Shown here: one piece after another, positions 7,330-26,938 of the stretch | Layout of the letters: each line of letters starts with the position of its first letter | How positions within the stretch are numbered: the first letter of the stretch is position 1 | DNA from: Treponemataceae bacterium | Lineage (GTDB): Bacteria > Spirochaetota > Spirochaetia > Treponematales > Treponemataceae | Assembly: GCA_024680915.1 (NCBI GenBank) | Contig: JAILBN010000083.1 | Span: forward strand, 1-33,546 | Reading direction: 5' to 3' | DNA length: 33,546 nt | Position numbers and translations under genes: made by a program | Notes under the pieces: generated by a model | What the model was told of the DNA's origin: nothing | Databases searched by the model: none | What the model saw: only the letters and a program-made list of their open reading frames with translations

Positions 7330-8193
7330 ATGACGGATAAGACCACAGAGGGAAAAAACAAGAGCTGCAGACGGAATTACAGGAAGGAGATGGAAGAGAT
7401 ACTGGAGTCTCTGTCTGCCGGTTTTCCTGCCCCAAGCTCCGAGGCCAAGACTGACTCCAGCTCTGCGGCAGGCACCAGCTCTGCCACGGACTCCGGCTCG
7501 GCGGCGGATACCAGCTCTGCCACGGACTCCAGCTCTATTGCAGGCTCCAGCAAAAAAAAGCCCGCCCTGCTGCTTCACGCCTGCTGCGGGCCCTGCAGCT
7601 CCTACTGTCTTGAAACCCTGGTTCCTTATTTTGACATAACGATATACTACTACAATCCTAACATAAGCCCGCAGCAGGAATACTCACGCAGACTTTCAGA
7701 ATTGACCAAGTTTCTGGCCCGCTTTCCCCCTGCCATTTCAGGCAGTGTAAAGCTGGTAGAAGCTGAATACAATCCAGAGGACTTCTATAACGCCACCAAA
7801 GTACGTAATGAGCCTGAGCTTGCCGCCGAAGAGGAAAGGGGTGAGCGCTGCCGCCGCTGTTATAACCTCAGGATGAGCAGAGCCTACGAATATGCCTGCA
7901 AGAATGGCTTTGACTGGTTCACCACCACCTTGAGCATAAGTCCCCACAAGGATGCTGAGAAAATAAACATCATCGGGTTCGCGCTGGAAGCGGCGGCAAA
8001 AAAGGAAGCAGACTCCAAGCAGGAGGAAAGCGGGCCGAAAGGCTATACCCGCTTTTTACCCTCCGATTTCAAGAAGAAAAACGGCTTTTTAAGAAGCACT
8101 CAAATCAGCCAAGAATACGGGATGTGGCGGCAGGATTACTGCGGCTGTCCCTACTCCTTCCGAAAAAAAGCTGAGGATACTCACAATTCCTAG
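7330..8193 (+). CDS. queH: Epoxyqueuosine reductase QueH with a Ser/Ala/Thr repeat insert
   Basis: A 287-residue protein of the QueH (formerly DUF208) family, which reduces epoxyqueuosine to queuosine in tRNA and replaces QueG in many bacteria. Visible are LLHACCGPCSSYCLE, YYYNPNISPQQEY, ERCRRCYNLRM, TTTLSISPHKDAEKIN, DFKKKNGFLRS and DYCGCPYS, which hold the conserved Cys ligands and substrate residues. Unusually, about 40 residues between an N-terminal helix and the catalytic domain are a Ser/Ala/Thr/Asp-rich linker made by an in-frame DNA repeat. QueH proteins normally begin much closer to the HACCGPC motif, so the first 75 residues are an added, probably disordered extension. A weak CAGG lies before the ATG. 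Last gene of the BI-1/HAD/QueH operon. Confidence 0.92.
   Translation: MTDKTTEGKNKSCRRNYRKEMEEILESLSAGFPAPSSEAKTDSSSAAGTSSATDSGSAADTSSATDSSSIAGSSKKKPALLLHACCGPCSSYCLETLVPYFDITIYYYNPNISPQQEYSRRLSELTKFLARFPPAISGSVKLVEAEYNPEDFYNATKVRNEPELAAEEERGERCRRCYNLRMSRAYEYACKNGFDWFTTTLSISPHKDAEKINIIGFALEAAAKKEADSKQEESGPKGYTRFLPSDFKKKNGFLRSTQISQEYGMWRQDYCGCPYSFRKKAEDTHNS
7474..7530 (+). repeat. In-frame tandem repeat in queH
   Basis: A 21-nt sequence beginning ACCAGCTCTGCCACGGACTC occurs at 7474-7494 and again, exactly, at 7510-7530, a period of 36 nt. Related decayed copies lie on either side. It encodes TSSATDS-type units in the disordered N-terminal linker. Confidence 0.8.
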
Positions 8194-8258
8194 GCGGGAA
8201 GCAGGCCGGCCGTTCCCCAGGAAGAAAGAAGAACTGCTGACTGCATATCCGCAGGAAA

Positions 8259-8945
8259 TCAAGCTGCGTTGTTGTTGGGAGATCCCCTCGGAGTATCGTT
8301 ATCATTGCCATTCATCGTGAAAATCCACAAAAGACGCCTTATAGACCCAGGAAGAATATCGCGGATAAGCTCTGTCTCTGTGTTCTCAGGGGTCATTGTG
8401 ATTGCCTGCTCCATGACAGTAGACATCACAGGCGGCAGAACAGGGAAAAAGGCTTCTGCCTCTTCCTGGGTGTACTGCTTTCTCTGGATGGGAGGATTTC
8501 TCGCCGCAAGAAGGGAATCGGGATAAAAGCGGCAGGGTCGCCACACAGGAGCACCGTTTTTTCCCAGGGAGCAGGCGGCGCCGAAGAGCCTGCATATAAA
8601 AGCCCTTCCTCCGTATATGGAACAATGATAAGGATCGGCTTCGTCAAAGAAAGGGCAGGTTTTTCCGTTATCAAAGGGAAAATGCTCCTCCGCAATTTCC
8701 AGGGCTTTCTCATACTGGTTCTCAAGAAGCCAGGCCGCCATATAAAGGGCTTCGCATTCAAGCAGGTCCGGCTCAAAATTATGGCAGCAGGTGCCACAGC
8801 CTTCCGGACATGTAAAATTAGAAGTCTCGTACCAGAAGCTTTGTCTGTCTTTTATAGACTGGTACAAAAGCTCTGTTTCCACAAGTATGTCATATTCTTT
8901 TGTTCCGTACAAAAGGCCAAGAACATGATCTATCTCAGATTTCAT
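8259..8945 (-). CDS. YkgJ family cysteine-cluster protein
   Basis: A 228-residue soluble protein of the YkgJ (CxxCxxCC) group, thought to bind zinc or an iron-sulfur cluster. The motif CPEGCGTCCHNFEPDLLECE near residue 45 is followed by CPFFDEADPYHCSIYGGRAFICRLFGAAC and CRFYP, the usual remaining Cys ligands. The C-terminal 60 residues are less conserved. AAGGAT precedes the ATG. It converges on queH, with a 65-nt gap that holds no clear terminator, and sits 147 nt downstream of the AddA-like gene. Exact function unknown. Confidence 0.85.
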   Translation of the reverse strand: MKSEIDHVLGLLYGTKEYDILVETELLYQSIKDRQSFWYETSNFTCPEGCGTCCHNFEPDLLECEALYMAAWLLENQYEKALEIAEEHFPFDNGKTCPFFDEADPYHCSIYGGRAFICRLFGAACSLGKNGAPVWRPCRFYPDSLLAARNPPIQRKQYTQEEAEAFFPVLPPVMSTVMEQAITMTPENTETELIRDILPGSIRRLLWIFTMNGNDNDTPRGSPNNNAA

Positions 8946-9092
8946 AAAATCCTTTGGATCAGCCCCTTTTTTTGGGAGGCAATCTTAATTTAACGGGGTC
9001 TTAATCAGCTTTTACAGCAGATAAACTCCGAGAATCTTAGGAGTGACGACATATGATGCTACGAAAAAGAAATATGCCATAATTCATGATTT

Positions 9093-12000
9093 TTATGCAA
9101 TATATTCGCCGCATTTTTCCGTTATATCCACAGTCTTTCCGAAACGCAGATAATAAAGCAGGCAGCGGATGGAGGAAACATCCTTCACCCCCAGCATGGC
9201 GGCCACAGCCTGCCGGTAGCTGGCAAGCTGCAGATAGTAAAGCTCTGGTTTTATGGACTGATTTGTCTTGTAATCCACTATTGTGAAGCTTCCGTCAGGA
9301 TTCTCGAAAACAAGGTCAATAGTTCCTTTCAGAATGGATTTTGAAAGCCGGCTTCTGAAGCTGTACTCCGCTTTTATAAAACGCTTCGAAGCCATACAGG
9401 CCGCCACCTCGGAGCCCAGCTCCGATTTTCCAAAAACAGCAGCCATCTCTCCACAGATAGACTTGACAGTCTCTATCGCCTTCTTCCTATTCTCAAGCCC
9501 GGCCCACTCCCTCTCACTTATAACGGGCTCTTTACCTGTTATGGCAGCTTCCATATAGGCATGGGCTATAGTTCCGAAATTCGCGAAGGAGAATTTAGGC
9601 TCTGGTGTTTCTCCATTGTCTGCTTTAGCGGGCAGTGTACTTAAGACTATCTCCCCTATTTCCCAATAGGGAAGACTCTTGTCTATCTCAAGGCTGAAAG
9701 AATTCTCTTTCTTGTCAGCTCTCAGGGTCTCATCATCACTCTCATGAAGATGACTGGGATTCGTGTATTTCCGCTCAGGAAGCTCAAGCTTTATGAGCTC
9801 AGCCTTATCATAGGGTCTTACATTCCAAAGATATTCGACAAGCCTGCCTTTATCCTGAAGAGTATTCTTTCGACCAGACCTATCCAGCTGCTCTTTCCGG
9901 GGATAGAAGGGTATCTCCTCCACATCAAAGGGAGCGCAGTTTCCGGAAGCTGGCAGCAGCAGCTCACCCTGAGCTTCCATATAAAAAGAAAAAATATAGG
10001 ACAGGGGCTCAAAGACAGCGGTCATCTGCTTCTTGGTGCCGGGACAGTACTTGGAATAATCGTCCTCATAGCCTTTTGATGAATACTTACCATGGGTTAT
10101 GAAAAGCTCCTTCTTTGCCCTGGTCAAAGCCACATAAGCCTCACGGCGGAGTTCCGCATTCTTTTTGTTTATTTTCTCCTGCTTCACTTTAATAAAAAAG
10201 TAGTTTTTGCTATCCCCTTCTTTTCCAGAGGATGAGGCCTTCACCGTAAGGGCATATTCCTTACTGAACCTTATCTTGTCGTCTTTCTCGTAAACGCCGC
10301 CGCTCTCCGAATCGCATAGGAAGACAACATCGAACTCCAATCCCTTACTTTTGTGTATTGTCATTATTTTTACGCCGTCACTCTGTTCAAGGGGAATATC
10401 CATATCCTCAAGTCTTGAGTCTTTCTCTTTATACTGGTTAAGACAGTCAGCGAAGGCGGCTATGTTCATATTATTATTCTCACCCTGTCTGGCAAGCTCA
10501 AAGATAAGGTCATACTGCTTACTGAACATTTCCACAGAATGATTCCACATAGTTTCATAACGATAGCCGGAATCGTACCAAAGCCTGGAGACAGTCTTGG
10601 TCAAGGGCTCGTAAAGGCAGGACTCCGCAATGCGCCGATAAAAAGCGGCTGCCGCCTGGAAACGCTCCCGGCTTTGTCCAAGAAAGGAGAAGTCCTGGTC
10701 AGGGAAGACCCCATGAAGAGCAAGGATTTTCTCCATGTCCATTAAGGAAAGGTTCACAAAGGGAGAGCGAAGAACCTGAGCGTAGGAGGATTTGTCCTCT
10801 GGATTCACGCATAAATTTATGTAAGCCGTCATATCGGTGAAGGGGCCGTCGGAAAAAACATCAACGGCGACCTCAGTATTGTAGGGAATGCCGTGGCGGA
10901 GGAAGGTCCTCTCAAAAAGCATCTGAGATTTTATTTTAGGCAGGAGTATTGCTATATCAGAAGGATTCACAGGATCCTCAGGTCTCTTCATCAGCTCCTC
11001 GATTTTACGGGCGACCCATTCGGCCACAGCTTCCGCATCAAGCATAAAAGCCTTCTCATCCATTTTATTATCTTTGTTGTCCACCTTTTTCTGAAAAGCA
11101 AAATGCACATGGGGTTGATAGGCTTCACTCAATTTTTCTTTGGTGTCTATTTCCTTTATCTTCGAAGCGGGTACCAGGGCATTATGATAGACTGCCTCAT
11201 AGGGGGGCACATTTGTGGCGGGGATCGCGCTTTTAACATCGGAGAAAAAAACTGAGGGAAGGGCATCCACCGTGGCAGGCTTTCCGCTTACAGGATACTC
11301 CGCCCCGCCGAATATGGTGTTGAAGGCCGCTATAAGGGCTGGATGGGAACGGTAATTGGTATACATGAACAAATTACCGTCTTGGAACTGGGAAGAAAGG
11401 TTACGGAAGACAGAGACATCAGCGCCCCGGAACCCATATATGCTCTGTTTCTCGTCCCCGACGAAAAACAGCTTGTCGGGACAAAGCTCAGAGACCCGGG
11501 GTATGGATCTCTCCATGCGGTCTTCTCTTTCCGCAAGCAGATAAAGCATATCCCTCTGGTCTGAGTTATTGTCCTGAAACTCATCTATCATTATGGCTTT
11601 GTACTTCCGCTTTTCCACTAAGCGTATCTCAGGATAATCACGCAGAACACACAGAGCCATATTGGAAATATCGCTGAAGCCCAGAATACCGGAGCTCCTT
11701 TTTATATCGCAGACCATATCCTGGAACTCAACATAAAGGGGGATAAGGCTTTTTATGATATAAAAGGTGGAGATGTAGTCATACAAAGAAGGAAGGATTT
11801 CCAAGAGCTTTTTTATCTCATCAAGAATCTCACAAATCTCCTCAGCATTCTTCATGTTACCTGGTTTTCTAAAGGTAAAGCCTGCAAGAAGACCTTTTAT
11901 ATATTCCTCAATGGGGGAAACATCCCCACTCTCTATATCTTTCCTGGTAAGAAGAGGAATCTCCATCCCCTCAGCAAGCTCCGCGGCAGTCTCAAGCTTC

Positions 12001-20439: not shown

Positions 20440-20790
20440 GCCGCTTTCAGGCCGGGCAGTTAGGCCCGGTGCAGCACCTAAACGGGCTAGTGACAGGCCG
20501 GGTGGCGGCCCCCCTTAAATAAAGGCAGGAGCTGGTGGCAGGCCGGGTGGCGACAGGCCCGGTGCAGCACCTAAACAGGCTGGTGGCAAGCCGGGTGGTG
20601 GCAGGCCCGGTGCAGCACCTAAACAGACTTGTGGCAGGCCGGGTGGCGGCCCCCCTTTAATAAAGGCAGGAGCCGCTTTCAGGCCGGGCGGTGACAGGCC
20701 CGGTGCAGCACCTAAACAGGCTAGTGACAGGCCGGGCGGCGCCCCCCCTTAAATAAAGGCAGGAGCTGGTGGCGGGCCGGGCAGTTACGC
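20440..20790. repeat. GC-rich compound tandem repeat
   Basis: A visibly GC-rich stretch after the peroxidase gene. The core GGCCCGGTGCAGCACCTAAA starts at 20463, 20556, 20604 and 20697, giving intervals of 93, 48 and 93 nt, so a 48-nt unit alternates with a 45-nt unit that contains CCCCCCTTAAATAAAGGCAG. Every core includes the palindrome GGTGC-A-GCACC, and CCGGG/CCCGG arms recur on either side. Short frames across it are repeat translation and not credible genes. With the array that follows it fills the 20383-21153 gap. Confidence 0.85.
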
Positions 20791-20820: not shown

Positions 20821-21061
20821 TAGTCGGGATTATAAAGTCATGTGGCAATATGTTCCCGACTAAAGCTGTAAAAACGTCATTTTAGTCGGGAAGTTATCAT
20901 ATAATGCGACAACGATTCCCGACTAAATGCTTAAAAATCGGAGATTAGTCGGGAATTTCAGATTTGATAGGCTGTTGTCGAGGTGGTTTTCCCGACTAAA
21001 AGCTGTAAATCGTAAGATTAGTCGGGAAATATAACGGCGCATGGCAATATGTTCCCGACTA
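20821..21061. repeat. Phased inverted-repeat array 1 (TAGTCGGGA / TCCCGACTA)
   Basis: Four TAGTCGGGA motifs start at 20821, 20883, 20946 and 21019, and four TCCCGACTA motifs start at 20854, 20917, 20990 and 21053. From each TCCCGACTA to the next TAGTCGGGA the gap is exactly 20 nt (three of three). From TAGTCGGGA to TCCCGACTA the gap is 24, 25, 35 and 25 nt. The 20-nt spacers resemble each other (AGCTGTAAAAACGTC type) and are reverse complements of those in array 2. No reading frame crosses the array. See the findings for the comparison with array 2. Confidence 0.95.
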
Positions 21062-21084
21062 AAGCTGTGAAAACGTCAATACAC

Positions 21085-21128
21085 AAAAAGCCCCTGGAAT
21101 CGGAACAATCCAGTTGACTTCCAGGGGC
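21085..21128 (-). terminator. Terminator of the xylanase gene
   Basis: On the minus strand GCCCCTGGAA (21128-21119) pairs with TTCCAGGGGC (21099-21090), followed by TTTTT. Confidence 0.85.
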
Positions 21129-21153
21129 CTGCTTTTATTCCAAGCTTCTATTT

Positions 21154-22434
21154 TTATTCCAAGGTCACAGAAGCATCCGGGCAGCCGGCAGCAAGGCGGA
21201 ATTTGCCCTTTTTGCCGCTAGAAGTTATCTCATAGCTGCCCTTGAAGCCATCAACCGTGACGAAACCGTCAGCATCGGTAACAGCCTCAAAGCCAGTATG
21301 CCACTCTTCCTTGATAAGCTTGTGAAGAGCTTTGTAGGAAGGCTTGAGAGAGTTGTCCCTTCTGATAACACCGCTGGGGGCGTTTATCCAGGCACCGTCA
21401 CCGTAGTCCCAGTTGGTTATGGCAGTCACGAGAGGATGATTCTCGAAAAGATTGCGGTACATCTTCTCCAGATTCTCGGCCTGCTGAGCCTCGTACTCAG
21501 GTGTGGCCGCATCGTCCTCATAGTGGGCATCCTGAAGGTCGTCTATCTCAGGAGGCACCAGAGGGCCTGCTACAATAGTATTCTCAGTGAAATGGATAGG
21601 AAGGCCGAAATGCTCATAGCGGCTGAGGATTTCCTCAGTCTTTTCCTTGGTCCATACGCCCTGATGCTGGTGGGACTGAAGACCTATGGTCTTTATAGGA
21701 GCGCCTGCGTTGAGACAGCCGTCAATAAGAATCTCGTAGTTTGTAGAAAGGTTGAAGTCATTGATGAGGAAAATGCCGTCAGGATTGGTCTCCTGGGCGG
21801 CATCAAAGACAGCCTTGACCAGAGCCACACGCCCCTTCTCCTTGCAGATCCGGGTTATGGCGTTGTCGTATTTTTTATAGATAGGCATTATGACAACTTC
21901 GTTTATCACATCCCACATATCGATGACACCCTTGAAGTTTCCCACATCACGGTGAATGCGTTCCAGCTGCTTTTTCAGGATGGTGGCATTGTCATAGTTC
22001 ATGAGCCAGGGTACACAACCCGTATGCCAGCAGAGAGGATGGCCTTTAACAGTGACATCCTTGCTTCTGAGGAATTTCGCCGCATTCATAAGCTGTTCTG
22101 TATGAGGCTTTCCTTCCTCAGGCTCAAAGCCACCCCAATAGAAGGGCAAGGTTCCGTAATTGAAAAGCCCCAGCCATTTCTGCATGCGGTCTTCCAAATT
22201 AGCCCTGAAGGCTTCCTTCTCCTTATCAGTCATTTCCTTGACTTCGGTAAGCCGGCCAGTGCCGTTATGAACAGAAGGTCCGTTCGTATAAGGCAGAGAC
22301 TCAAAAGCACCGCATCCGAACAAGAACTCGTGGTTGACCTGATTCACCACGACCTTAGCATTTGCAAGCGGTTGTCCTCCGCATCCTAAAACCTTCACCT
22401 TGGCCTTAGCCTTTCTGTGGGAAATATCCGGCAT
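21154..22434 (-). CDS. GH10 endo-1,4-beta-xylanase, intracellular
   Basis: A 426-residue glycoside hydrolase family 10 enzyme. The acid/base Glu179 is in IDMWDVINEVV (171-181) and the nucleophile Glu284 in LPIHFTENTI (278-287), where most GH10 enzymes have TELD. Substrate-site residues are in KGHPLCWHTGCVPWL (130-144) and GLQSHQHQGVW (251-261). There is no signal peptide or membrane helix, so it probably cleaves imported xylo-oligosaccharides in the cytoplasm. A roughly 40-residue N-terminal beta segment precedes the barrel and a short beta tail follows it. GAGGTG lies before the ATG. It has its own terminator. Confidence 0.92.
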   Translation of the reverse strand: MPDISHRKAKAKVKVLGCGGQPLANAKVVVNQVNHEFLFGCGAFESLPYTNGPSVHNGTGRLTEVKEMTDKEKEAFRANLEDRMQKWLGLFNYGTLPFYWGGFEPEEGKPHTEQLMNAAKFLRSKDVTVKGHPLCWHTGCVPWLMNYDNATILKKQLERIHRDVGNFKGVIDMWDVINEVVIMPIYKKYDNAITRICKEKGRVALVKAVFDAAQETNPDGIFLINDFNLSTNYEILIDGCLNAGAPIKTIGLQSHQHQGVWTKEKTEEILSRYEHFGLPIHFTENTIVAGPLVPPEIDDLQDAHYEDDAATPEYEAQQAENLEKMYRNLFENHPLVTAITNWDYGDGAWINAPSGVIRRDNSLKPSYKALHKLIKEEWHTGFEAVTDADGFVTVDGFKGSYEITSSGKKGKFRLAAGCPDASVTLE

Positions 22435-22537
22435 AAAACACCTCTTTGATTATGAATGAGCATGTATATCGGAACTAATTCGAGGCCTTTCCCGAAGCTC
22501 AGCAGAAAAAGAGTCCCGATACATACAGAGTCAATTA

Positions 22538-22559
22538 TAAGGGGGATTTTTCCCCCTTA
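22538..22559. other. Short perfect hairpin between lipoprotein and xylanase genes
   Basis: TAAGGGGGA and TCCCCCTTA form a 9-bp stem with a TTTT loop. Without a clear T tract it could be a weak terminator of the upstream lipoprotein gene or a processing or stabilising hairpin. Confidence 0.5.
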
Positions 22560-22583
22560 GCTATCTGTGCTTTTACCTATGTT

Positions 22584-23666
22584 TCAGTAAATAAACTCCA
22601 AGCCCTCATAGGTGGGTGGAGTGCGGATGAGAGGGACATCACCCATAATCGCTAAAAGCTCGTAGTACATATGGAAAAAAGCCTCCACCCCGCCAAAGGT
22701 GGCATATTTTGCGGCCAGGTACTCTTTGGTGTAGTCACCATTATTCCAAATCTCATCAACCCGGGTGTCAGCATCTATCATCAGGGATATTTGTGCTTTT
22801 TTCTTTTCCAGCTGGGGTTCGACGAACTTAAGGAAGAGGGAAAGAATCTGACGGTTGTACTCCGCCACAATCTCGGCTTCCCGTTTACGTTCATCAACGA
22901 ACCACTGAGGTACGGCTACAGGTCTTTCACGCCTGACACGCTCCATAAGCTCATCCTCTATAGCCTGTACCTGCTGACAGGCATCAGATGTATACCATTC
23001 CCGGCATATCTTTTTTATAAGAGGCATAAAGTCATCGAAGAGAAAACGGGGAAAGCCGCCATTTCTCACATTTATCAACCAAGCCACCTCATCGTCATCC
23101 CGGCCATCAAAATAAGTCAAAAGATCGGACATCAAAGCCCATTCTTCCGAATACATAGGAGTAATCTTATTGACAGCCTCATTATATTTTTCGGCATTGG
23201 GATCAATGATAAATTCAGGAGTAAAGGAAGAATCCTTTGAAGCACGGATAGCATTATTCATCATAGCCTCATTGTTTCTTTCCCTTGCTGTCTCAAGCTC
23301 CTCATGGGATTCTGTGTTTTGGACGGCTTCAATGCAGGATTCACAGATATAATTGATAAAGTAGGCCATTTCTTCCCTGGTATCCAAGTCCGAAAGCTCA
23401 GGCAAGAGCAGTAAATTCTCGTATGCTTCCTCATAACTGCCGTATGTATGTTCCATAACCAGAGCCTTGTATTCCGCAGATTCAGAATCAAAGCTTGTGG
23501 GAAAAAATCTATCCGAATCCTCATAATCCGAAACGACATTTCCACCCAGATTCTTGGCGAAATCCACTTCCTCCAAAATCGGGACAGGTCCCATACCATC
23601 GGTTGTCAGGCATCCGGTCGTAAGAACTGAAAATAAAACTGCAATGACAAGACTTATTTTTCTCAT
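22584..23666 (-). CDS. Lipoprotein of unknown function
   Basis: A 360-residue protein with a lipoprotein signal MRKISLVIAVLFSVLTTGC, lipid-acceptor Cys at 19. The ATG at 23666 follows GAGGAG and begins the signal peptide; the longer frame from 23714 is not supported. The mature protein is acidic and looks mostly alpha-helical, with several Trp/Tyr/Glu-rich helices (for example EEVAWLINVRNGGFPRFLFDD region around 200-225) and a run RERPVAVPQWFVDERKREAEIVAEY. No domain is recognised. It may be co-transcribed with the xylanase gene 150 nt downstream, with the hairpin at 22538 between them. Confidence 0.8.
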   Translation of the reverse strand: MRKISLVIAVLFSVLTTGCLTTDGMGPVPILEEVDFAKNLGGNVVSDYEDSDRFFPTSFDSESAEYKALVMEHTYGSYEEAYENLLLLPELSDLDTREEMAYFINYICESCIEAVQNTESHEELETARERNNEAMMNNAIRASKDSSFTPEFIIDPNAEKYNEAVNKITPMYSEEWALMSDLLTYFDGRDDDEVAWLINVRNGGFPRFLFDDFMPLIKKICREWYTSDACQQVQAIEDELMERVRRERPVAVPQWFVDERKREAEIVAEYNRQILSLFLKFVEPQLEKKKAQISLMIDADTRVDEIWNNGDYTKEYLAAKYATFGGVEAFFHMYYELLAIMGDVPLIRTPPTYEGLEFIY

Positions 23667-23746
23667 ATTTCTCCTCAACACATATAGTGTGACAAGCATT
23701 CTAACACAAATCAAAGGAATTTTCTAACAAAATAAAGCAGAATAAC

Positions 23747-23789
23747 AAAGTTTAACTTTAGTGAGCTCTCAGATTGTTCCTGCTATAAT
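23747..23789 (+). promoter_or_regulatory. Palindrome and extended -10 upstream of the XRE regulator
   Basis: A 13-bp palindrome AAAGTT-T-AACTTT (23747-23759) lies 24 nt before an extended -10 TGCTATAAT (23781-23789). The -10 ends 6 nt before the ATG at 23796, so the transcript is predicted to be leaderless. No good -35 is seen, as expected for an extended -10 or an activated promoter. The palindrome sits between two divergent genes. Confidence 0.5.
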
Positions 23790-23795
23790 TCAGAC

Positions 23796-24637
23796 ATGAA
23801 TAAGGCAGATACCTTCATCAACTACATAATCGATCTGGAGGCAACCGGAAAGAATATCAGGACCTTCTGAAAATCACCGGTTACACGGCAAGGGAGCTGG
23901 AAAGACTTATGGGCTGCACCCAGATGACTTTTTTCAACTGGCAGGAGGGCAAGAACCTGCCCAGCTACGATAATCTTCTCCGTCTTGCAGGCATACTCAA
24001 GATTCCCCTTGAGAAAATCGTCGTCTTCAAGAAATTCACGGAGGAGAAGCTTCCCCTTAAGGAGACCAACAGCGGTTTCATCCGCAACAACGTCTTTTTC
24101 ACCTATAACCGTGCCACAGAATGCGTGCTGCGAGACTGTATGGTATTCAAGAAAAAATACGACTCATACCCGGACCAGCTGATTCTTTCTTCCAAGGCCC
24201 TTGAGAACTGGAAAAAGAGAGAGAAGGAGGAGGAAGCAGAAGCGGCTGTGGAAGCTGAGGAGACCTTACCTGATTACAACAGCATCCCGGACTTGGTTCC
24301 GCAAGGCAGAAGCGGTAGTGGCGGAAGCTACCAAGGGGCTCCCCTCACAGGTGCGGACAGGGGGCCTTTCACAGGTGCGGACAGGGGGCCGTTCACTGAT
24401 GCGGACTTGGCTCCCCTCACAGGTGCGGACAGGGGGCCGTTCACCGATGCGGACTTGGCTCCCCTCACAGGCGCGGACAGAGACCCGCTCGCAGGCGTGG
24501 ACTTAGCTCCCCTCACAGGCGAGCTTGCCCTTGATGAGGCGGGAAAAGAAAGGGTCAGGACCCTGGCCTTCTCAATAGAAATCATTTTGAAAGAAGATAT
24601 GCCGGAGCATTATTACAGGCTTATAAAAGCCTCTTGA
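23796..24637 (+). pseudogene. Frameshifted XRE-type helix-turn-helix regulator
   Basis: The ATG at 23796 opens MNKADTFINYIIDLEATGKNIR, then meets a stop at 23868. One base appears to be missing near 23860: in the next frame the protein continues DLLKITGYTARELERLMGCTQMTFFNWQEGKNLP and a second stretch SYDNLLRLAGILKIPLEKIVVF, a complete XRE DNA-binding domain. The joined product would be about 280 residues. The second half has a charged region, an acidic linker, seven copies of an 8-residue repeat (TGADRGPF / TDADLAPL) and a conserved-looking tail RVRTLAFSIEIILKEDMPEHYYRLI. It may be a dead gene, a sequencing error, or a programmed frameshift. A start at ATG 23909 would cut through the DNA-binding domain. 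Confidence 0.75.
24338..24522 (+). repeat. 24-nt in-frame tandem repeat in the XRE gene
   Basis: About seven copies of ACAGGTGCGGACAGGGGGCC plus TTTC-like endings, period 24 nt, coding TGADRGPF alternating with TDADLAPL. Neighbouring copies are nearly identical, suggesting recent expansion. Confidence 0.85.
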
Positions 24638-24663
24638 GAAAATCTTTATAAAGGAGCTTTGAT

Positions 24664-25206
24664 ATGACAAGAATCCACGAAGCCATCAACTTTGCAGCGA
24701 TCAAGCACCAGAACCAGAAGAGGAAAGGAACCCAGATCCCCTACATAGTCCATCCCATGGAAGTGATGCAGATACTGACGGCGAACGGTTGTTCCGAAGA
24801 TGTCATACTTGCGGGAATACTCCACGACACCCTGGAGGATACCGACACAAAAGCCGTTGAAATCGAGGAGAAATTCGGAAAGGCCGTGCTTGAAATAGTG
24901 CTTACCGAAAGCGAGGACAAATCCAAGACCTGGCGGGAACGAAAGCAGCATACCACCGACTGCCTGCAAAAGGACAGCCTGGAGACCCGCCTCGTCTGCT
25001 GTGCCGACAAGCTTTCAAACATCCGAAGCATCTATGCTGACTTAGAGACCAAGTGGGATAAGCTTTGGGAACGCTTCAATGCTCCCAAGGAAGACATCAA
25101 ATGGTATTACAAATCGATTGCCCAAGCACTAAAAGGGCTTTCTGGCTACAAGATGTACGATGAGCTTTGTCAGACTGTAAAAGCAGTTTTCTACCCGGAG
25201 GATTAG
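24664..25206 (+). CDS. Small alarmone hydrolase (Mesh1/SpoT-type HD domain)
   Basis: A 180-residue stand-alone HD hydrolase of the RelA/SpoT homologue group, predicted to remove the 3'-pyrophosphate of (p)ppGpp. The manganese ligands are visible: His30 in YIVHPMEV, His54-Asp55 in GILHDTLEDT, and Asp115 in CCADKLSNI; the ED pair (58-59) needed for hydrolysis is present. No synthetase, TGS or ACT domain follows, so it is a hydrolase-only small protein. It begins 26 nt after the regulator's stop with AAGGAG upstream and ends 1 nt before the next gene, so it lies in an operon. Confidence 0.88.
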   Translation: MTRIHEAINFAAIKHQNQKRKGTQIPYIVHPMEVMQILTANGCSEDVILAGILHDTLEDTDTKAVEIEEKFGKAVLEIVLTESEDKSKTWRERKQHTTDCLQKDSLETRLVCCADKLSNIRSIYADLETKWDKLWERFNAPKEDIKWYYKSIAQALKGLSGYKMYDELCQTVKAVFYPED

Positions 25207-25207
25207 C

Positions 25208-26080
25208 ATGGCTGAGAAAATAAAATACTACTTGCACGATGAAGGCGAGCTTTGGAAAAAAGAGGATGGCAAGGATTTCTATTTTTCCAGCACAAAGCTG
25301 GAGTGGATAGAAAGCAGAATCTATTTTATCCTTCCTTCCTGGGATTATGAAAATGCCCTTGATCCCCACAAGGCAGAGGAAATACTTTCTGCATACAAGG
25401 CAGATGGAAAATGGGAAGAAGAGGAAACTCCCCTCAGATATTTCGCAAATGATAATGATTCTGTATACGCCGAAGACATTTATGGAAAGGAGTTCTATGT
25501 CCTTGCGGATATGACCCTCAAACCCGCAAGAAAAGGCACCGTGGACTGTATGTGGGGAGGACTTACAAGGGAAGAAGCGGAAGACTTCTGCAAAAAAGAA
25601 TACAAAAAAGACGACTGGATCATGGTAAATTGCGGAAGAACCTTAGTCCGCTATATAGGGGACGACTACATAGGGACTATCAGACTTGAAGAAGATAGGC
25701 AAGAAGGCACTGAAAAGGAAAAGCTTTATCGCGCAGAAATACAGCTTGATGATGGGATGGATTATCCCTATGTAGTGTCATATCTTGAAGCCACCAGCCT
25801 TGAAGAGCTTAAGAAAAAAACAGAAAGAAAGATGAAAGAAAGAAAGAAAGAAAGAAAGAAATGCCTTCAGGAATCGCCAAAGCTAGAAGCAGCCAAAGCC
25901 AGAAGCCGCAAAAGCCAGAAGACGCTCCACGCCAGGAGCCGCCAAAGCCAGAAGCCGCTCCACGCCAGGAGCCGCCAAAGCCAGGAGCAGCCCTACGACA
26001 GGAGCCGCCAAAGCCAGAAGCCGCTCCACGCCAGAAGCAGCCAAAGCCAGGAGCAGCCCTACGACAGGAGCCGCCACTGA
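25208..26080 (+). CDS. Unknown protein with repeat-switched basic C-terminal tail
   Basis: A 290-residue protein of no family I recognise. Residues 1-205 form an ordinary soluble domain rich in Trp, Tyr and Asp/Glu (YYLHDEGELWKKEDGKDFYF, then YFILPSWDY, CMWGGLTREEAEDFCKKEY). A Lys/Glu/Arg stretch (KMKERKKERKK) is encoded by a GAAA tract, after which the tail is a Ser/Arg/Gln/His repeat (ARSRQSQKPL type) of 11-residue period. The same DNA read in another frame gives a Pro-rich tail (APRQEPPKPEA type) to a stop at 26091, which looks more natural. Gain of one GAAA unit would connect it. GGAGG precedes the ATG; only 1 nt separates it from the alarmone hydrolase. Confidence 0.8.
   Translation: MAEKIKYYLHDEGELWKKEDGKDFYFSSTKLEWIESRIYFILPSWDYENALDPHKAEEILSAYKADGKWEEEETPLRYFANDNDSVYAEDIYGKEFYVLADMTLKPARKGTVDCMWGGLTREEAEDFCKKEYKKDDWIMVNCGRTLVRYIGDDYIGTIRLEEDRQEGTEKEKLYRAEIQLDDGMDYPYVVSYLEATSLEELKKKTERKMKERKKERKKCLQESPKLEAAKARSRKSQKTLHARSRQSQKPLHARSRQSQEQPYDRSRQSQKPLHARSSQSQEQPYDRSRH
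25834..25861 (+). repeat. (GAAA)7 tetranucleotide tract inside a coding sequence
   Basis: Seven uninterrupted GAAA units, with further GAAA just before. Because four is not a multiple of three, gain or loss of a unit changes the reading frame of the tail. One more unit gives the Pro-rich tail ending at 26091; one fewer gives an early stop at about 25886. Confidence 0.95.
25910..26075 (+). repeat. 33-nt tandem repeat coding the tail
   Basis: Four to five copies built on GCTCCACGCCAGGAGCCGCC followed by AAAGCCAGAAGCC, period 33 nt (11 codons). Two variants, one with CTCCACGCCAG and one with CCCTACGACAG, alternate. The period is a multiple of three, so copy number changes length but not frame. 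Confidence 0.85.
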
Positions 26081-26145
26081 CCGGCGCTTGATGAATGCTG
26101 CACGGTTCATAAAAAACAAAGCTAGACATAAGTGAGGAGAAGAAA

Positions 26146-26307
26146 ATGACAATAGCAGAAAGGGAAGAAATAATACGCCAGGATTCCATACAGATGAATC
26201 TTGCCTCTGATCTGGACTTTCCATGGCTTGAGGATGAGGTTAAAGATATTCCTCCCATAGAAGAGTGCGAGGATTACGTACCACCGGGGACACAGAAGGA
26301 GGATTAA
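26146..26307 (+). CDS. Small acidic protein, 53 residues
   Basis: A short gene with GAGGAG (26134-26139) six bases before the ATG. The protein begins MTIAEREEIIRQDSIQMN, continues LASDLDFPWLEDEVKDIPPI and ends PPGTQKED. It is strongly acidic, has no signal peptide or membrane segment, and could fold as a helix plus extended tail. I recognise no family. It lies 65 nt after the repeat-tailed protein and 4 nt before array 2, so it is the last gene of the regulator/alarmone-hydrolase group. A small acidic protein next to a basic-tailed one could be a partner or inhibitor; that is a guess. Confidence 0.75.
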   Translation: MTIAEREEIIRQDSIQMNLASDLDFPWLEDEVKDIPPIEECEDYVPPGTQKED

Positions 26308-26311
26308 ACTT

Positions 26312-26938
26312 TCCCGACTAAACTGGCCTTTTTGTGGTTTTGGTCGGGAAAATATTGCCATGCGATGTTATATTCCCGTCTAAACTGACATTTTTGGCGA
26401 TTTAGTCGGGAAAAACTCGTCGGCAACAGTCTTTCGGGACCTATTTTTCCCGACTAAATTGGTGTTTTTGTGGTTTTGGTCGGGAAAATATTGCCACATG
26501 ACTTTGCATTCCCGACTAATCTCACAATTTCCAGTTTTTAGTCGGGAATCGTTGTCGCATTACATGAGAATTTCCCGACCAAGTTGGCGTTTTTGGGGAT
26601 TTAGTCGGAAAAACCACGTCGGCAACAGTCTTTCGGGACCTATTTTTCCCGACTAAGTTGGCGTTTTTGGAAATTAGTCGGGAAAAACTCGTCGGCAACA
26701 GTCTTTCGGAACCTATTTTTCCCGACTAATCTGGCGTTTTTGTGGTTTTGGTCGGAAAAATATTACCATGCGATGTTATATTCCCGTCTAAACTGACATT
26801 TTTGGCGATTTAGTCGGAAAAAAAATCGTCAGCAACAGTCTTTCGGGACCTATTTTTCCCGACTAAGTTGGCGTTTTCACAGCTTTAGTCGGGAAAAAAT
26901 CGTCGGAAACTGTTTTTGCGGCCTGATTTTCCCGTCTA
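26312..26938. repeat. Phased inverted-repeat array 2 (TCCCGACTA / TAGTCGGGA)
   Basis: Ten TCCCGACTA-type motifs start at 26312, 26374, 26448, 26510, 26573, 26647, 26720, 26782, 26857 and 26930. Nine TAGTCGGGA-type motifs (some TGGTCGGGA or TAGTCGGAA) start at 26341, 26403, 26477, 26539, 26602, 26675, 26749, 26811 and 26886. The inward gap is 20 nt in eight of nine cases and 19 once; the other gap is 24-25 or 35-37 nt. Most flanks extend the arms to TTTTCCCGACTAA and TTAGTCGGGAAAA. It is the same element as array 1 in opposite orientation. From 26939 to 27119 I see nothing but AT-rich DNA. Confidence 0.95.

Follow-up and report, generated by a model that had tools for sequence, protein, structure and literature searches.

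The stretch of DNA analyzed here (the window) comprises positions 1 to 33,546 of contig JAILBN010000083.1 from a rumen-type Treponema genome (Treponemataceae bacterium, assembly GCA_024680915.1) and carries two arrays of an inverted repeat whose relatives elsewhere in the genome lie beside genes of an unnamed nuclease family. Both window arrays are built from the dyad unit TTCCCGACTA-N20-TAGTCGGGAA. Array 1 (20821-21062) is located 3' of a GH10 gene and contains three complete 40-bp units (20853-20892, 20916-20955, and 20989-21028) with a half-site at either end. Array 2 (26311-26938) contains nine units, two of which have TCCCGTCTA half-sites and one of which has a 19-nt loop, followed by a terminal half-site. 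Specifically, its units occupy 26311-26350, 26373-26412 (left half TTCCCGTCTA), 26447-26486, 26509-26548, 26572-26611, 26646-26684 (the 19-nt loop), 26719-26758, 26781-26820 (left half again the degenerate TTCCCGTCTA), and 26856-26895, and the terminal degenerate half-site, also TTCCCGTCTA, is found at 26929-26938 on the minus strand.

The window contains 18 exact copies of the 9-mer TAGTCGGGA, grouped into two clusters (20821-21061 and 26312-26894); dinucleotide-shuffled sequences contained 0.10 copies on average and never more than 1. An initial annotation of this DNA had described a 9-mer alternating with its reverse complement in two arrays, and its measurements were reproduced: the TCCCGACTA-to-TAGTCGGGA gap is 20 nt throughout with a single 19-nt exception. 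In the opposite direction, 9-mers are separated by 24-25 or 35-37 nt (10-mers by 22-23 or 33-35 nt), and the two kinds of gap together give unit periods of 62-63 or 73-75 bp. No open reading frame (ORF) of at least 80 amino acids runs over either array, in agreement with the annotation's statement that they are not coding, and neither array contains an Rfam family or a tRNA; terminator and coding readings were rejected on the absence of such an ORF and of any Rfam family. Within array 2, a weak third motif, TCGTCGGCAA (2 mismatches), lies inside the 35-37-nt gaps at 26417, 26689, and 26900, each time on the strand of the half-site that precedes it. Separate from the dyad repeats, unrelated tandem-repeat arrays are present at 7453-7551, 20462-20782, 24337-24521, and 25868-26076 of the window, as well as at 8190-8460 and 9080-9620 of locus L020, within the same intergenic regions or next to them. 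Of these, the arrays at 24337-24521 and 25868-26076 lie toward the 3' ends of ORFs.

A genome-wide search recovered 27 exact unit pairs on 7 contigs, compared with 0 for the reversed control. When degenerate copies are counted, pattern searches place about 10 arrays on 8 contigs of this genome, including the two in the window. Across this main (TTCCCGACTA) family, spacers measure 22-23, 33-36, 44, and, in a single case, 66 nt, rising by ~10.5 bp per step. Half-site columns are mostly 93-100% conserved, the lowest at 77%, and most loop columns are 35-67% conserved; loops and spacers recur both within and between arrays. Among 58 related genomes, the exact unit pair was found in none. A de novo scan of flanking DNA detected in this genome a second array of identical layout whose arm differs (TTACGGACGAAA-N16-TTTCGTCCGTAA; period 95-96 bp). 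The relaxed pattern GACNAAA-N16-TTTNGTC matched 33 times in this genome, 19 times in G028, which belongs to another genus of Treponemataceae, and at most once in each of the other 57 genomes. The exact motif is absent from the 58 relatives; it was only through this relaxed pattern that other half-site families surfaced.

Outside the window, a 293-amino-acid nuclease gene on contig C106 (G000:C106:41121-41999; L021:8119-9000, minus strand) is situated between two TTCCCGACTA arrays, and the nearest unit ends ~27 bp ahead of its ATG. Three further homologues are encoded in this genome, and immediately 5' of each of the four family genes is an array with a distinct half-site (TACGGGTCA at the C30 locus, TACGGACGA at C50, and TACGGCTAA at C123). 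By their half-sites, we assign the window arrays as solitary copies of the C106 family. The nuclease family was found in 24 of 145 Treponemataceae genomes at 1-10 copies each. At least three repeated dyad units were detected within 900 bp 5' of 32 of the 71 Treponemataceae loci and at least two at 50 of 71, the latter count falling to 4 of 71 on the 3' side and to 0 in shuffled 5' sequence. The 5' arrays often end 0-150 bp from the frame, and at three loci (C106, L173, and L114) arrays flank the gene on both sides. No general neighbor gene was common to more than 6 of the 71 loci. Two nuclease genes from different genera are followed by a similar hairpin, AAAAAARACCACCTACCCnnnnGGATAAGTGGT (L075:1018 and L079:6960), possibly a terminator.

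The association was also seen in Lachnospiraceae, where 41 of 120 sampled genomes match the family profile and ~38 of 120 carry the family itself, a few of the 41 matches being the C-terminal domain alone within a protein of more than 1100 amino acids. At least two units lie 5' of the gene in 16 of the 30 loci examined, with periods such as 53, 64, 73-75, and 84-85 bp; at several loci the 5' sequence is shortened by contig ends. That these genes sit near contig ends is as would be expected if the arrays break assemblies. On these counts, the array-nuclease association is taken to span two phyla, Spirochaetota and Bacillota. Passive tandem-repeat expansion in a repeat-prone genome, with an incidental nuclease linkage, would account for the unrelated tandem arrays found beside the dyad arrays here. 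However, a linkage of 50/71 on the 5' side against 4/71 on the 3' side would be unexpected from such a process, as would a dyad geometry that is constant across half-site families and phyla or the co-divergence of half-sites and protein described below, and the neighboring tandem arrays that were tested show no 9-20-9 dyad geometry. We consider passive expansion hard to credit.

The layout shared among loci consists of 9-bp half-sites ~20 bp apart, repeated at periods of 53-106 bp. In nearly all of 34 aligned arrays, the half-site falls at -19 to -11 from the dyad and follows the common pattern xxCxxAYxA, with the remaining positions varying by locus; flanking columns are not conserved between loci. 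Unit-to-unit distances (69 locus values) gave a best period of 10.6 bp and a Rayleigh R of 0.87 at 10.5 bp. These values are not independent, and the test to trust is therefore that on 16 half-site families with one value each, which gave a Rayleigh R of 0.94 (p about 8e-7) at 10.5 bp. Mean A+T content peaks near 1, 10, 21-23, 31, and 42 bp from the dyad, and a period of 10.5 bp describes it best even in the zone 20-47 bp away, which lies outside the half-sites and where nothing was selected (amplitude 0.060 versus at most 0.014 in controls). We read this oscillation as a property of double-stranded, probably curved, DNA. The annotation's proposal that binding sites occupy a single helical face is thus well supported by both spacing and base composition, and its reading of the arrays as neither CRISPR, integron, nor coding sequence likewise stands; the genome-wide family, the different half-sites of other arrays, and the link to a nuclease had escaped it.

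Double-stranded phasing bears directly on another explanation, namely that, as in TIGR, CRISPR, or REP systems, the arrays are transcribed or extruded and the resulting RNA or single-strand hairpins serve to guide or supply the nuclease. Where both half-sites of a unit have changed, the changes are compensatory in 12 of 12 cases versus 1.7 expected, as hairpins would favor, and TIGR arrays likewise adjoin an effector gene with a repeat sequence that differs by locus (PMC12045711). However, a hairpin RNA requires neither 10.5-bp phasing of units nor an A+T oscillation in spacers, and the recurrence of loops and spacers within and between arrays is not that of unique guides. In addition, none of 2.9 million viral contigs matched one repeated spacer exactly (two single matches to the exact unit came from the viral-contig search), and no Nop domain was matched by Pfam models. 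We regard a hairpin-based system as improbable. The symmetric half-site changes may reflect hairpin-mediated conversion, units drawn from related families, or a hairpin role.

Pfam and NCBIfam contain no model for the nuclease family, and a sequence search of solved structures matched none. A 63-row alignment retains RSKSE, PDF, WEHFG, K254, and E274, the PD-(D/E)XK core residues E181, P221-D222, E237, and K254 are conserved, and the C-terminal end of the PADLOC model PDC-S68 is matched by 63 of 63 members. The full-length model had a pLDDT of 93.7. Closest to its C-terminal half were the folds of I-Bth0305I (Z 7.9, 88 residues, 2.5 Å) and TnsA (Z 7.5, 118 residues, 3.8 Å), with VRR-NUC also among the closest folds. 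From the conserved core, the PADLOC match, and the modeled folds, we place the linked gene in the PD-(D/E)XK nuclease superfamily, with nuclease activity as its predicted function.

The N-terminal domain is predicted to consist of a helix, a beta-hairpin, and a long helix (pLDDT 90.7 when modeled alone); it gave no convincing fold match, the hits being mostly coiled coils such as prefoldin with Z below 7. Across 27 loci, half-site distance correlated with N-terminal distance (Mantel r 0.62, p 0.0005) and with C-terminal distance (r 0.55). The partial correlation for the N-terminal domain given the C-terminal domain was 0.36 (p 0.0005), compared with a nonsignificant 0.09 for the reverse, and the N-terminal effect remained when close pairs were excluded. 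Because of this asymmetry between the domains, the data point to the N-terminal domain as the half-site reader. Arrays and nucleases appear to have shifted target sequence jointly. Per-column analysis of specificity residues pointed weakly, and not conclusively, to three positions of the predicted beta-hairpin region (S44, K46, and I66). Copies on plasmids and phages were just partial C-terminal matches, plus one from an unannotated faecal "Bacteriophage sp." contig (MT839528.1, hit H3), whose relative is 29% identical over residues 63-293.

Arrays also occur away from any nuclease gene. For the TTCCCGACTA family there are about nine such places, both window arrays among them. The TACGGACGA half-site forms one solitary array on contig C41 of this genome and, in G028, a nuclease locus plus three solitary arrays; TTACATAAA is present in G028 as one of each. 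CCTACA-type arrays were found both beside nucleases and alone in G117, G121, G154, and G161. One solitary array lies inside the pst operon, where three Treponema relatives lack it between pstA and pstB; the pstA-pstB gap itself (L020:8188-9691, C41) is ~1.5 kb with three different repeat arrays and measures ~60-150 bp in two relatives. At the dapL site, G001 and G005 have neither nuclease nor arrays, and the C16 array is missing from the same two genomes, in which synteny breaks at the same point as well. Some solitary arrays with identical loops are common to several species (G112, G117, and G122). Conserved solitary four-unit arrays adjoin a methyltransferase-like gene at L200 and L201 (G112 and G122) and at G117:C11:55861, and a single gene neighborhood in three species (L199, L202, and L207) carries 2, 5, and 4 matching units. 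G108 retains just the first and last of the units present in G154, a pattern consistent with unit-exact loss. Overall, arrays appear to have dispersed in a lineage-specific manner at some scales and to be stable at others. In-frame stops interrupt family genes at G112:C1:765835-766464 and G117:C7:146125-146709, and both genomes still carry arrays.

These distributions can be set against the view that the arrays are operators and the nuclease is a fixed, non-mobile enzyme such as a defense effector. Cooperative binding would then do nothing beyond repressing the nuclease gene, and solitary arrays would represent decoys, regulon sites, or relics. An operator would be expected nearly always 5' of the gene and close to the frame, as observed, and the ~27 bp between unit and ATG at C106, the helical phasing typical for cooperative operators, and the presence of the C-terminal domain in the defense candidate PDC-S68 all suit this view. 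It does not readily explain solitary arrays beyond promoters, such as those inside the pst operon and 3' of the GH10 gene (window array 1), and arrays of at least 10 units or on both sides of the gene exceed the needs of an operator. We judge a purely operator function unlikely, although worth keeping in consideration.

The reading that we favor, at a probability of roughly 0.6, is that the arrays are double-stranded DNA sites of a cognate dimeric PD-(D/E)XK nuclease and that the pair works like a REPtron. Beyond the geometry, phasing, linkage, co-divergence, and dispersal documented above, we infer that the nuclease binds the arrays, probably as a homodimer, with the N-terminal domain of each subunit reading a 9-bp half-site and the two half-sites of a dimer flanking a central A/T tract at ~20 bp from each other. 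Consecutive units would share one helical face, and several dimers could then sit side by side on curved DNA; such cooperative binding by cognate nuclease dimers is the best-supported part of the proposed mechanism. The nuclease gene and its 5' array would constitute one locus in which the array could double as an autoregulatory operator, and because the nearest unit at C106 ends so close to the ATG, the 5' array likely also governs nuclease expression. More speculatively, cutting or nicking inside bound units might cause repair to copy, expand, and spread the arrays; self-dispersal as the purpose of the pair is the most speculative element.

Several observations weigh against this interpretation. 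All fold matches of the nuclease have Z below 8, and shared ancestry makes up part of the correlation between half-site and protein. About 30% of family loci have no detectable 5' array, some being cut by contig ends. Some solitary arrays occur in genomes in which no intact nuclease with the same half-site was found (G112 and G122), and some are vertically shared between species; present-day mobility is therefore not established, and no target-site duplication was seen. Finally, DNA binding alone does not predict the symmetric half-site changes noted above.

Together, the linkage of arrays and nuclease points to an undescribed nuclease-plus-binding-site system. Within the libraries and papers searched, the annotation's description of the repeats as an undescribed kind holds, in that none of the families in Pfam, NCBIfam, or Rfam corresponds to the array-nuclease pairing and the open PubMed Central literature yielded no paper on it. 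We see an evenly balanced case for an unrecognized nuclease-array class in Spirochaetota and Bacillota, in which a compact PD-(D/E)XK nuclease and helix-phased dimer sites would change specificity jointly and propagate themselves with no HUH enzyme or guide RNA. An unnamed nuclease family would thereby gain a cognate DNA target legible from the sequence beside each gene, which would make specificity, mobility, or regulation testable at once and supply dozens of naturally occurring protein/half-site pairs from which recognition could be decoded. A class of intergenic repeats would also be accounted for as footprints left by a nuclease, and the pair, if it self-disperses, would parallel the REPtron independently, using an unrelated enzyme.

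Among known systems, CRISPR-Cas was rejected on the alternating orientation of the repeats and on spacers repeated within and between arrays, and an integron array on periods of 53-106 bp, which leave no room for cassettes. Restriction-modification was rejected for want of a methyltransferase companion, or of any neighbor shared by more than 6 of the 71 loci, and a homing endonuclease was rejected as the arrays beside the gene keep their sites intact and the gene does not interrupt its target. Neisseria NIME/dRS3 arrays combine inverted GGGAA-type ends and variable inserts into intergenic mosaics, for which we know of no nuclease gene linkage or helical phasing. The phage-defense candidate PDC-S68 has the C-terminal nuclease domain in common (residues 168-292); however, it is ~1200 amino acids long, whereas the family here is ~280 with its own N-terminal domain. 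The catalytic domains of I-Bth0305I and TnsA are the closest solved folds, yet no sequence relation to them was found and their other domains differ.

TIGR-Tas loci combine an array of short alternating elements with a single adjoining effector and a locus-specific repeat sequence (PMC12045711), and the arrays described here resemble them in lying beside one effector gene with a repeat specific to the locus. The unit here is 53-106 bp rather than about 36 nt and is phased as double-stranded DNA, no box C/D layout was seen, and in place of the edge and loop repeats of 8-12 nt with 9-nt spacers that TIGR systems process to 36-nt RNAs the geometry is 9-20-9; TasH appeared among unspecific coiled-coil fold matches (Z 6.5). 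In REPtrons, a TnpA-REP (RAYT) gene lies beside cognate palindromic REP/BIME/REPIN repeats, REPIN clusters adjoin RAYT, the repeats are dispersed in intergenic DNA, and enzyme and repeat co-diverge (PMC8266576, PMC3116915). The enzyme here is of the PD-(D/E)XK type instead of HUH (Y1), and no HUH TnpA-REP gene recurs beside the repeats of the 71 loci, the rest of the genome not having been searched for HUH genes. No conserved GTAG/CGTC tetranucleotide marks the foot of the palindrome, the half-site consensus being xxCxxAYxA, and the arrays differ further in being phased to the double helix, with 9-bp half-sites ~20 bp apart and several specificities per genome. In its working, the REPtron is nevertheless the closest known system: both pair a nuclease-type gene with cognate palindromes, both show co-divergence, and in both, intergenic palindromes matching those beside the enzyme gene are dispersed through the genome.

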